The notes under the pieces are model-generated. The model searched no databases and was not told the origin of the DNA. It was given only the letters and a program-made list of their open reading frames with translations. Of a DNA stretch of 64,000 nucleotides, positions 16,065-56,974 are shown one piece after another. A program made the translations under genes and the position numbers. The DNA is taken from positions 1 to 64,000 of the forward strand of contig NZ_BCNS01000139.1 of assembly GCF_001528745.1 (NCBI RefSeq), read 5' to 3'. The DNA comes from Marinobacterium profundum. GTDB lineage: Bacteria > Pseudomonadota > Gammaproteobacteria > Pseudomonadales > Balneatricaceae. Numbering within the stretch: position 1 is the first letter of the stretch; each line of letters opens with the position of its first letter.

Positions 16065-16253
16065 GATAAGGGGCTAGGGGCTAGAAGAAAGGTGCGAGGA
16101 GCGAGGTGCGAGGTGCGAGGGGCTAGAAGAAAGGTGCGAGGTGCGAGGTGCGAGGTGCGAGGAGAAAGGGGCTAGAAGAAAGGAGCGAGGGGCGAGGTGT
16201 GAGGTGCGAGGAGACAGGGGCTAGAAGAAAGGTGCGAGGTGCGAGGTGCGAGG
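16065..16253 (+). repeat. degenerate heptanucleotide array, 27 units
   Basis: 189 bp divide into 27 consecutive heptamers with no slip in register. All fit N-N-N-N-A-G-R, and 26 of 27 have G at position 2. Main words are TGCGAGG, GGCTAGA, AGAAAGG and AGCGAGG; the pair GGCTAGA-AGAAAGG recurs five times... counting starts at 16079, 16121, 16170 and 16219 gives four direct pairs. It starts 5 bp after the glcF stop and is purine-rich on the glcF sense strand. Open frames here on either strand are artefacts of the repeat. Confidence 0.95.
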
Positions 16254-16281
16254 GTGAGGAGAATACGGGTTGAAGTTGTAG

Positions 16282-16355
16282 CCTGGAATGAGCTTGCGAA
16301 TTCCGGGAAGTGAGCCTCATGCGAGTTTCGAGGGTATGGCTGTGAATTCCGGGAA
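16282..16355. repeat. REP-like hairpin and GAATTCCGGGAA direct repeat
   Basis: CCTGGAAT (16282-16289) pairs with ATTCCGGG (16300-16307), with one G-T pair, to form a hairpin. GAATTCCGGGAA occurs at 16298-16309 and again at 16344-16355. These resemble extragenic palindromic repeats common in gammaproteobacteria. The rest of the gap to 16527 holds no gene; the iclR promoter should lie there but no clear hexamers were found. Confidence 0.55.
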
Positions 16356-31602: not shown

Positions 31603-31658
31603 CCTAGCCCCTAGCCCCTAGCCCCTAGCCCCTAGCCCCTTACTTCTAGCTTCTAACC
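31603..31658 (-). repeat. heptanucleotide array after roxA, 8 units
   Basis: Read on the minus strand, eight heptamers follow the roxA stop by 7 bp: GGTTAGA, AGCTAGA, AGTAAGG and five GGCTAGG. All fit N-G-N-N-A-G-R, the pattern of the arrays at 16065 and 38457. Confidence 0.93.
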
Positions 31659-31665
31659 CCTGCTA

Positions 31666-32820
31666 TCAGCCCTGATCGTCAGCGTAGAAGATGCCCTGGT
31701 TGATCAGCTGGGTCAGTAGTTCCAGCGCAGCGTCTATGTCCTCGCCCAGTTCCAGGCCGCCGCTGTTGCAAATGCCGCTGAAGAGCGGTTCCTGTGCTTC
31801 GGTGCCGGCATAACGGATTCCATCGGCAAAGAGTTCACAGCCGTTGCTGCTGCGCCGCCAGGCCAGGCGGGCGCCTTCGGTGCGGCTCAGGGTGCCGCCG
31901 GATTCCAGATAGGTACGCAGGTTTGCAGCGCTGACGGGCTCTTCGGGTTGCTGATCCAGATCCGGATACTTGGGCTCTGTCATGCAGCGGCCAAACCATT
32001 CGCCCAGCAGGGCATCGTCATTAATGTACTGGTTAAGGATGCCGCGCACCCGTGCCAGGGCATCGTCTCCAATCTGAGTGCTGTTGGCTTGTGGCTTCAG
32101 GTCGGGATCGCTGTAACGCAGTTCGTTGCTCAGGCGCTCACCGACAAAGTCAGTGAAGTTGCGCATGATTTCGCCATGGGAGGGCGCACGAAAGCCCACC
32201 GAGTAGGTCATGCAGCCATCACCCACGGCGATGCCGCTGTGCCCAAGGCGCGGCGGTACATAAAGCATGTCACCGGGCTCCAGAACCCAGCTTTGCTCGG
32301 CCTCCCATTCCGGCAGGATCATCACCGGGGCATCGCTGCGTTTGGGCGAGTCTGAGTTAAATTCACCGCCGACTTCCCAGCGCCGCTGGCCTGCGGCCTG
32401 TATCAGGAATACATCGTAGTTGTCATAGTGCGGCCCGACACCGCCGCCATCCACGGCGTAGCTGACCATCAGGTCATCCAGGCGCCAGCGCGGGATAAAG
32501 TCGAACTGTGCCATCAGTTCAGCCGCTTCAGGTACCCAGTGATCCACGGCCTGAACCAGCAGGGTCCAGTGGGACGGGGGCAGCTGGCCGAAATATTCTT
32601 CCTCGAACGGCCCTTGCTGCAGTTCCCAGTGATCACTGGCGGGATCCTGCAGCACTATGCGCGCTTCCACGTCCTCTTCGCAGGCCAGGCCTGCCAGGTC
32701 GTCGGCTTCGATGACCGGTTCCAGATCGGGAAAGGCCTGGCGGATCAGCAGCGGCTTTTTCTGCCAGTATTCTGCCAGAAAGCGTTCGGGGGTCAGGTCG
32801 CCCAGGTTAAGTATGTTCAT
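31666..32820 (-). CDS. roxA: ribosomal protein uL16 arginine hydroxylase (RoxA/YcfD)
   Basis: A 2-oxoglutarate/Fe(II) oxygenase with a JmjC cupin fold that hydroxylates an arginine of ribosomal protein uL16. The 384 residues match the family length. The start MNILNLGDLTPERFLAEYWQKKPLLIRQAF is typical. Iron ligands are H and D in GPHYDNYDVF and H in RLGHSGIA. The C-terminal winged-helix part follows. Its ATG overlaps the stop of the small gene upstream by 1 bp (TGATG), so translation is coupled. A heptanucleotide array begins 7 bp after its stop. Confidence 0.92.
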   Translation of the reverse strand: MNILNLGDLTPERFLAEYWQKKPLLIRQAFPDLEPVIEADDLAGLACEEDVEARIVLQDPASDHWELQQGPFEEEYFGQLPPSHWTLLVQAVDHWVPEAAELMAQFDFIPRWRLDDLMVSYAVDGGGVGPHYDNYDVFLIQAAGQRRWEVGGEFNSDSPKRSDAPVMILPEWEAEQSWVLEPGDMLYVPPRLGHSGIAVGDGCMTYSVGFRAPSHGEIMRNFTDFVGERLSNELRYSDPDLKPQANSTQIGDDALARVRGILNQYINDDALLGEWFGRCMTEPKYPDLDQQPEEPVSAANLRTYLESGGTLSRTEGARLAWRRSSNGCELFADGIRYAGTEAQEPLFSGICNSGGLELGEDIDAALELLTQLINQGIFYADDQG

Positions 32821-38001: not shown

Positions 38002-38454
38002 ATGAGTGATTTTATCAGTATTCAAACCGAGGACTTTGATATTGCCGGTCTGCACGCGCAGCTGCGTTCCGAGGATGCCAGTTGTGGCGCTATAGTCACC
38101 TTCACCGGCATTGTGCGCGAGCTTGAAGGCGCCGAACGGCTGCGGGGCATTTTCCTGGAGCATTACCCCGGTATGACGGAAAAGGCGCTGGCTAAAATTG
38201 TCGCCCAGGCTAGAGCGCGCTGGCCGCTGGGGCAGGTCTGCGTGATTCACCGCGTTGGTGAGCTGCTGGGTAACGATAATATCGTCTATGTTGGTGTTGC
38301 CTCACGCCATCGGGTGGCGGCGTTCGAGGCGGCACAGTTCATCATGGATTACCTTAAGCGCGATGCGCCTTTCTGGAAAAAGGAACTGTTGGGCGATGAT
38401 GCGCGCTGGGTTGAGCAAAAGGGCACTGACCTGGATGCGGCGGAGAAATGGTGA
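38002..38454 (+). CDS. moaE: molybdopterin synthase large subunit
   Basis: With MoaD it inserts sulfur into precursor Z to make molybdopterin. The 150-residue protein shows GAIVTFTGIVRE (28-39), the dimer region FLEHYPGMTEKAL, the segment IHRVGELLGNDNIVYVGVASRHR and the catalytic lysines in APFWKKE (about 121-127). AGGAG lies 6 nt before the ATG. No moaA, moaC or moaD is present in the window, so it is separated from the rest of the pathway. A heptanucleotide array starts 2 bp after the stop. Confidence 0.94.
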   Translation: MSDFISIQTEDFDIAGLHAQLRSEDASCGAIVTFTGIVRELEGAERLRGIFLEHYPGMTEKALAKIVAQARARWPLGQVCVIHRVGELLGNDNIVYVGVASRHRVAAFEAAQFIMDYLKRDAPFWKKELLGDDARWVEQKGTDLDAAEKW

Positions 38455-38456
38455 GA

Positions 38457-38505
38457 GGCTAGAAGCTAGAAGCTAGAGGAAAGGGGCTAGAAGCTAGAGG
38501 AAAGG
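38457..38505 (+). repeat. heptanucleotide array after moaE, 7 units
   Basis: Seven heptamers in unbroken register: GGCTAGA, AGCTAGA, AGCTAGA, GGAAAGG, GGCTAGA, AGCTAGA, GGAAAGG. All fit N-G-N-N-A-G-R. It begins 2 bp after the moaE stop and runs into a long palindrome. Confidence 0.93.
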
Positions 38506-38545
38506 GGCTCTTGCATCTAGATCTAGATCTAGATGCAAGAGCCCC
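38504..38545. repeat. 42-bp perfect palindrome between moaE and rluE
   Basis: GGGGCTCTTGCATCTAGATC and its complement meet without a spacer; two extra bases per arm make 21-bp arms. The centre is a run of TCTAGA/CTAGAT. It lies between convergent genes and could end transcription from both, though no T-run follows. Confidence 0.92.
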
Positions 38546-56422: not shown

Positions 56423-56974
56423 TTACGCAGCGGTAGTCGCAGCAGGTGCAGCGGCTTTGCGCGGAGCGGCCTTGACAGGCGCCTTTTTCTCAACTTCTTC
56501 AGCGACTGGGGCAACTGGAGCAGCGATGAAAGCGCTCATGTCAGCGAACTTGCTCAGATCGGTGAATTTGCTGAAGTCAGCGAATTTGCTGAAATCGGTG
56601 AACTTGCTCATGTCAGTGAACTTGCTGAAGTCGCCGAACTGATTTGTTGGCAGTTCAGACATTTCAGTGATGCTTTTCTCAACGATTTCGCTCAGCTGAT
56701 CCTTGGCTTCAGTCAGAGTAGCGATTTCCTGCTCTGCAACGTTGGTCAGTTTTGATTCCAGGGTCTTGAAGAACTGAACCTGCAGTTCTACGGCAGACTT
56801 GGGTTCCTTGACAGCAGTCAGAGCTTTCATCTGAGCGATGCTGCTGTTGAACAGGTCAGTGACGCAGGCAGACTGCAGGGCGAACAGTTTTTCGGCCGCT
56901 TTTTTGTTGATCTCGGTGATATCAACAATAGGCTGCATTTTATCTTTCATGTCTTTCATAATATCGTTGTACAT
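56423..56974 (-). CDS. phasin family protein with hexapeptide repeat
   Basis: A 183-residue helical protein of the phasin (PHA granule-associated) family. The phasin domain is about 15-108 (KAAEKLFALQSACVTDLFNSSIAQMKAL). Residues 115-150 contain six tandem copies of D-[FML]-S-[KA]-F-x, encoded by an 18-bp tandem repeat (56525-56632). The C-terminal 35 residues form an Ala/Pro/Lys tail like those of histone-like or PHA granule-DNA linking proteins. GAGGT precedes the ATG, a strong promoter lies upstream and an intrinsic terminator follows, so it is a single-gene unit. No PHA synthase is in the window. Confidence 0.88.
   Translation of the reverse strand: MYNDIMKDMKDKMQPIVDITEINKKAAEKLFALQSACVTDLFNSSIAQMKALTAVKEPKSAVELQVQFFKTLESKLTNVAEQEIATLTEAKDQLSEIVEKSITEMSELPTNQFGDFSKFTDMSKFTDFSKFADFSKFTDLSKFADMSAFIAAPVAPVAEEVEKKAPVKAAPRKAAAPAATTAA

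Follow-up and report, generated by a model that had tools for sequence, protein, structure and literature searches.

Downstream of glcF in a genome of the genus Marinobacterium, a tandem run of heptamers keeps its 7-bp register while the units themselves change among several words. The question raised by this locus is whether the register is maintained by the cell, which would read the repeat as a spaced sequence, or reflects the way in which the repeat is copied. The window containing the array, i.e. the whole stretch of 64,000 nucleotides analysed here, lies on contig 139 of a genome of 5.64 Mb in 226 contigs (G000), one of seven Marinobacterium genomes (G000-G006) compared. Table 1 lists the features discussed.

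Table 1. Positions of the heptamer arrays, the Ter-like site and the associated genes (window coordinates unless another stretch is named).
Feature	Position	Strand	Remark
glcF-like ORF, 403 aa	14848..16059	+	gene name from the first-pass annotation; the array starts 5 bp past its stop
Heptamer array, 27 units (26 strict NGNNAGR at 16072-16253)	16065..16253	+	purine/G-rich strand is the glcF sense strand
6-bp unit GTGAGG	16254..16259	+	interrupts the register 3' of the array; by eye
Ter-like 14-mer AGATAACGGTATAA	29890..29903	-	the genome has 12 copies; this one adjoins no array
Second array, 8 strict units (GGCTAGG, AGCTAGA, others)	31603..31658	-	7 bp past the stop of minus-strand gene 31666-32820
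Third array, 8 strict units	38450..38505	+	overlaps the stop codon of gene 38002-38454
Gene of the divergent Tus-like protein	G000:C138:3174-4028; L149:8313-9191	- (L149)	found by protein search

The first-pass annotation had counted 27 heptamers with no insertion or deletion, and this count holds: the 189 bp split cleanly, and a 6-bp unit follows directly after the last heptamer. The letters reported at the constant positions are confirmed as well, AGR occupying positions 5-7 in 27/27 units and G occupying position 2 in 26 of 27. The exception to this grammar (NGNNAGR) is the first unit, GATAAGG, which leaves a strict run of 26 units, compared with a maximum of 3 in 60 first-order Markov windows. 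Variation at positions 1, 3 and 4 is indeed confined to a few words (TGCGAGG 11 times, AGAAAGG 5, GGCTAGA 4, AGCGAGG 2 and five more once each), but position 7 varies too, with G in 23 units and A in 4. Above the level of the single unit, the array has a superstructure of 42-49 bp. In addition to period 7 (23.4 copies), TRF reports a 49-bp repeat of 3.6 copies with 88% matches, and AGAAAGG comes next after GGCTAGA in 4 of 4 cases, an arrangement reached in 3 of 20,000 unit shuffles. The identity of units at a lag of 7 (7/20, P 0.065) is by itself not significant. Two tandem repeats of other kinds are present in the window, a 92-bp repeat of about seven copies with a 276-bp superperiod at its start (1-669) and a 36/18-bp repeat at 56534-56640, within the predicted minus-strand gene 56423-56974.

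Heptanucleotide tandem repeats form a dispersed family in Marinobacterium, to which the glcF array belongs. The genome-wide search for NGNNAGR units that the first-pass annotation had proposed yields about 60 arrays in the genome, two of them in the window besides the glcF array, each in the sense of the gene whose stop it adjoins. The main-word 17-mer AGGTGCGAGGTGCGAGG occurs 117 times in G000 (reversed control, 0) and is present in 5 of the 7 Marinobacterium genomes, and in 0 of 50 genomes searched elsewhere in the family and order. A pattern of four grammar units gives 279 overlapping matches in G000 (189+90; reversed control, 12+0), which correspond to an estimated 63 or so arrays on scaling up to the 279 matches from 418,665 bp, where 174 matches fall into 39 clusters. 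All seven genomes of the genus are positive, with 279, 46, 189, 29, 12, 18 and 7 matches in G000-G006 and 12, 7, 0, 5, 0, 0 and 0 in the reversed controls. The pattern matches in 27 of the 116 genomes of the family and in 39 of 194 sampled genomes of the order, mostly with few matches each and sometimes with no more than the reversed control; in genomes of other genera, the two counts can be equal (8/8 in G131, 12/12 in G101, 8/8 in G169). Immediately 3' of the third window array, a 42-nt inverted repeat with an ATCTAG-repeat centre (38504-38545) was seen by eye. A REP-like dispersed string, TGGAATGAGC, with GAATTCCGGGAA nearby, lies at window position 16284 and near several other arrays; TGGAATGAGC is found 7 times in 418,665 bp of G000, 4 times in 214,020 bp of G002 and 0 times in 297,628 bp of G001.

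For closer description we used 82 arrays of at least four strict units, 38 from G000, 19 from G001 and 25 from the first 3.38 Mb of G002, drawn from the window together with 60 other stretches, of which 57 were picked for holding arrays. TRF on the window and these 60 stretches reports period 7 most often (144 rows). Since the four-unit pattern itself imposes the grammar, TRF was also run on a sample free of it, namely 215,761 bp not picked for arrays (18 stretches around Ter-like sites, described below, and three others; rows with fewer than 3 copies were dropped). Here, 8 of the 11 tandem repeats of at least 3 copies have a period of 7, and these eight carry eight different words, several outside NGNNAGR and three being the words of arrays flanking Ter-like sites. 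Within the 82 arrays, 567 of 595 anchor steps measure 7 bp, a proportion biased towards 7 because a 7-bp grammar served to find the arrays and the walk tests a step of 7 before other lengths; breaks of register do occur in arrays other than that of glcF. Heptamers outside NGNNAGR occupy similar places, and therefore the period, rather than the words, is the constant, NGNNAGR being the largest of several word families seen. Other heptamer families (GATTCGT, GATTGGT, GCTGAAA, GCTGAGA) lie beside NGNNAGR arrays or a Ter-like site in L132, L167, L181, L188, L203 and other stretches, and where both occur, they are often distal to the NGNNAGR array, as judged by eye.

Comparison between sister species separates the site of an array from its content. 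Flank matching identifies at least 12 sites where tandem heptamers recur in two or three of the species, with a degenerate copy in G001 at one of them; these sites include the glcF site (window and L163) and the site of the second array (window and L162). At the glcF site, G002 carries an array of GGCAAGG words between flanks 85% identical to those of the window. The array is absent from this site in M. sedimentorum (L051; flanks 89% identical to the window), in L052 and in M. rhizophilum (L053; flanks 82%), so that comparison of the glc locus finds it missing from the closest relative examined; GlcF itself shows 95% identity over the best segment with M. sedimentorum GlcF and 92% with M. rhizophilum GlcF. 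At shared sites, sister species differ in the number of units and in the words, and the preferred words differ genome by genome in the four genomes whose vocabulary was compared.

Species predicts the words of an array better than site does. Word usage, scored from the letters at positions 3-4, has a mean cosine of 0.595 within species and 0.215 between species, a difference reached in 0 of 2000 permutations. For 13 same-site pairs at 11 sites, hand-picked from the flank-matched sites, the cosine is 0.29, against 0.62 with arrays of their own species. Contrary pairs with like words also exist (L140/L156, 0.98; L176/L151, 1.00), and at the L184/L166 site the proximal part is nearly common while the distal words differ. 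Moreover, GGCAAGG is used by G000 arrays beside Ter-like sites and is rare elsewhere in G000. Exchange between arrays is the obvious candidate for the likeness of words within a species, but composite strings are not common to loci beyond shuffles. Three-word composites shared between loci of G000 number 4 against a shuffle mean of 2.3, and four-word composites 3 against a mean of 0.5 and a maximum of 4; copying of composite word strings between loci was rejected on these counts, which show no clear excess. Arrays at fixed sites with species-specific words nevertheless provide a means to study exchange between dispersed short repeats.

These observations bear on the two readings offered in the first-pass annotation. 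Copying in whole units is well supported, both by the differing unit numbers and words at the same sites and by the 42-49 bp superstructure. Selection on spacing is not supported, given the absence of the glcF array in three relatives, the similar placement of heptamers outside NGNNAGR and the turnover of words, though it may still hold at some sites. The proposed strain comparison was approached here with sister species, between which unit number and words differ.

The position of the arrays relative to genes was taken from the calls of a home-made codon-score finder. In the stretches of the three genomes, 1 of the 82 arrays lies inside a predicted gene. The 76 arrays with both neighbours known occupy 30 convergent, 41 tandem (16 sense, 25 antisense) and 5 divergent gaps, compared with 61, 280 and 70 among 411 gaps of at least 40 bp in the same stretches. 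With a co-directional upstream gene, the array starts within 50 bp past the stop in 40 of 48 cases (median 12.5 bp); with an antisense upstream gene, 1 of 31 arrays lies within 50 bp. In convergent gaps, 26 of 30 arrays are closer to the co-directional stop. This sense-strand placement just past stops, together with the sites common to several species, is what a functional element of the 3' untranslated region would predict, acting either as a heptad-spaced track for an RNA-binding protein or on transcript ends. Such an element is hard to reconcile with the three relatives that lack the glcF array, with words that change between species at the same site, with the 25 of 76 arrays that lie antisense between tandem genes, and with unrelated heptamers (GCTGAAA, GATTCGT, GGTGAAT) in similar places, and we regard it as unlikely. 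The analysis gives no support to a code that the cell would read, and we do not favour a sequence-reading function of the array.

Three further explanations fare worse. A G-quadruplex element of the sort suggested for GGGNATC heptamers could draw on the GGGG tracts that GGCTAGG and GGCAAGG arrays present at 7-bp spacing; however, four G3+ tracts with loops of 1-7 occur in 24 of 93 arrays, so that the G-quadruplex was rejected as a common feature, and TGCGAGG, the main word of the glcF array, yields GG tracts only, which makes this explanation quite improbable. An origin as a mobile or inserted element that travels as a whole would account for the dispersal of the arrays and for the composite string TGCGAGA-ATAAAGG-GGCTAGG, which recurs at 3 loci. 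Against it, a 9-mer is common to both 30-nt flanks in 2 of 82 arrays, with no sign of target duplications of at least 9 nt, the flanks look unrelated by eye and composite strings do not rise above shuffles; we hold it to be very improbable. Shine-Dalgarno-like decoys that retain ribosomes past the stop codon are scarcely credible and were rejected, since the anti-SD pairing of the words, although high among letter rearrangements for TGAAAGG (rank 1/20) and AGAAAGG (1/5), is low for GGCTAGG (28/30), AGCTAGA (57/60) and GCTGAAA (37/60), with no common trend.

Whole-unit copying leads to the question of where the copying takes place, and here a minority of arrays is informative. Several arrays terminate in AAGATAACGGTATAA or a near variant of it. 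The Ter-like 14-mer, AGATAACGGTATAA, is present in 58 of the 116 genomes of the family in 1 to 12 copies each, with 12 sites each in G000, G001 and G002, whereas its reversed control occurs once in each of four genomes and 0 times in the remaining ones. Six genomes carry their sites on the same contig as dif, which is placed by the core known from E. coli. In these, 45 of 45 sites obey one rule of orientation: those ahead of dif are on the minus strand and those beyond it on the plus strand.

The sites are accompanied by a divergent Tus-like protein. The Pfam Tus model matches in 2 of the 116 family genomes, and its match in G005 is a locus other than the Tus-like gene of that genome; among the family genomes carrying the protein, the model detects it in G030 only (PF05472, 30 bits, cut-off 22). 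The model alone was therefore replaced as a finder by a protein search from this weak G030 match, which returns relatives in 58 of the 116 family genomes. Protein and site occur together in 56 genomes, the site only in 2 (one copy each), a weak protein match only in 2 and neither in 56 (Fisher 9e-28, uncorrected for kinship). Genus g11 splits exactly, with protein and site in three genomes and neither in four. Related proteins (E 0.001 or better) are found in 48 of 194 sampled genomes of the order. The assignment as Tus-like relies on the one member above the Pfam cut-off and on the 47% identity between the G001 and G030 proteins; a PDB profile search gave no Tus match, and hhalign to the Tus of G005 was weak. 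By eye, no gene of a terminator protein was recognised between the close site pair in L196, and a search for the 14-mer matched none of the papers covered. This system is an unexpected side finding, and its sequence features suggest a putative fork trap.

Arrays contact these Ter-like sites on one side only. Across the complete sets of G000 and G001, each of 12 sites, a perfect period-7 array abuts the 5' face in 6/24 and the 3' face in 0/24, compared with 9 of 1,075 overlapping intergenic 50-nt windows as background. The words of the six arrays are GGCAAGG (twice), TGAAAGG, GGCTAGA, GCTGAAA and GGTGAAT, and two further sites of these genomes have two to three units (L195, L208). Among 39 further Ter-like sites, a 5' array is present at one (in G005, which has 4 sites) and a 3' array at none; 0 of 9 sites in G006 and 0 of 26 in another genus have a 5' array. 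The sites of G002 were seen only within stretches chosen for arrays (3 of 12, all with a 5' array) and are excluded from both the 24- and the 39-site counts. The 5' face looks towards dif. With flanks matched by eye, the unit count at one and the same site is about one in G001 against nine in G000 (L199, L187), and for another pair it is nine against two and a half (L137, L208). Arrays also lie within 0.5 Mb of dif more often than expected (21 of 46 against 11.8, p 0.0035); this excess is hardly independent support, and was rejected as such, because, once Ter-abutting arrays are removed, 16 of 41 remain against 10.5 expected (p 0.07). A strand bias relative to replication was likewise rejected, as arrays pointing away from dif, counted by eye, number 16 of 19 in G001 and 15 of 28 in the first 3.38 Mb of G002, which is inconsistent.

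In E. coli, the face of Ter at which outgoing forks stop is the blocking face. If the Ter-like site works in the same way, its dif-facing face would be the blocking one, and the analysis of array positions suggests that arrays may grow where forks stop. A stalled replication fork would undergo slippage or template switching in 7-bp steps, from which arrays would arise and expand; units would then gain point changes and blocks of units would duplicate, giving rise to "words" that need no reader. The explanation we consider best, and to which we give an even chance, is a dispersed heptamer family that grows by whole-unit copying in 7-bp steps, putatively at stalled forks. Fork arrest as the driver is what we infer from the minority of arrays that abut only the dif-facing face of Ter-like sites, and it is an extrapolation for the others, as most arrays, that of glcF included, are not at a Ter-like site. 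In a fuller version, the arrays would be footprints of polar fork arrest, a putative divergent Tus-Ter trap of Marinobacterium and relatives and other barriers such as transcription ends would drive 7-bp growth on the blocked side, and an exchange process would keep the vocabulary of the species; this version is tentative and, in our judgement, doubtful as a whole. The one-face contact with apparent polar fork barriers opens a direct test of whether fork arrest and repeat growth are linked.

The comparison with known systems concerns both the sites and the arrays. The Ter-like site of Marinobacterium differs from the E. coli Ter sequence, in the form that we assume for the latter. Differences extend to the protein, since the G001 member alone matches no Pfam family and its gene, which follows another gene, is about 300 kb away from the closest exact copy of the 14-mer. 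The likeness to the E. coli Tus-Ter system as described in the consulted parts of PMC10331603 and PMC8707476 consists of several non-palindromic sites around dif, a flip of orientation at dif and a co-occurring Tus-like protein. The same part of PMC10331603 names Tus homologues for most Enterobacterales, Pseudoalteromonas and most Aeromonadales, and the Ter-like sites and Tus-like protein reported here suggest a putative fork trap outside the groups named there.

As for the arrays, that of glcF is of a known kind, the heptameric intergenic repeats; its words are new, and the family shows a vocabulary particular to each species and, in a minority of its arrays, a polar link to Ter-like sites. 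The first-pass annotation had likened it to the cyanobacterial STRR heptanucleotides, which are tandem heptamers, while noting that the words differ. A literature search with the array strings matched a virus-sequencing paper only. In the excerpts consulted, PMC4692102, citing earlier work, describes heptamer repeats as over-represented in many bacterial genomes and mentions the heptanucleotides of Calothrix. The TAACTGA repeats of Beggiatoaceae are, as described in PMC4679880, likewise intergenic direct repeats of heptamers (169 sets in one draft genome), but they use one fixed word and lie mostly just upstream of starts, whereas Marinobacterium uses many words, mostly after stops. The Marinobacterium arrays, being tandem, dispersed and intergenic, and lying either close past stops in sense or upstream in antisense, belong to the kind of G-rich heptameric simple sequence repeats. 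In the excerpts of PMC4692102, the GGGNATC and GGGGA(C/T)T heptamers of Xanthomonas and Nostoc are also dispersed, mostly intergenic and of varying unit number. Sister species often carry them at matching sites; they lie within 50 bp past stops on the sense strand or upstream in antisense, are rare between divergent genes and have no established function. Relative to that account, the Marinobacterium words differ, several of them are mixed in one array and the vocabulary varies by species; the four-unit G-quadruplex of GGGNATC has a counterpart in the minority of arrays with four G3+ tracts, and arrays antisense to the adjoining gene lie farther away from it (median 153 bp). The analogy with STRR sequences is thus a fair one as to kind, and the GGGNATC heptamers of Xanthomonas and Nostoc, as far as the excerpts of PMC4692102 describe them, are the nearer match.
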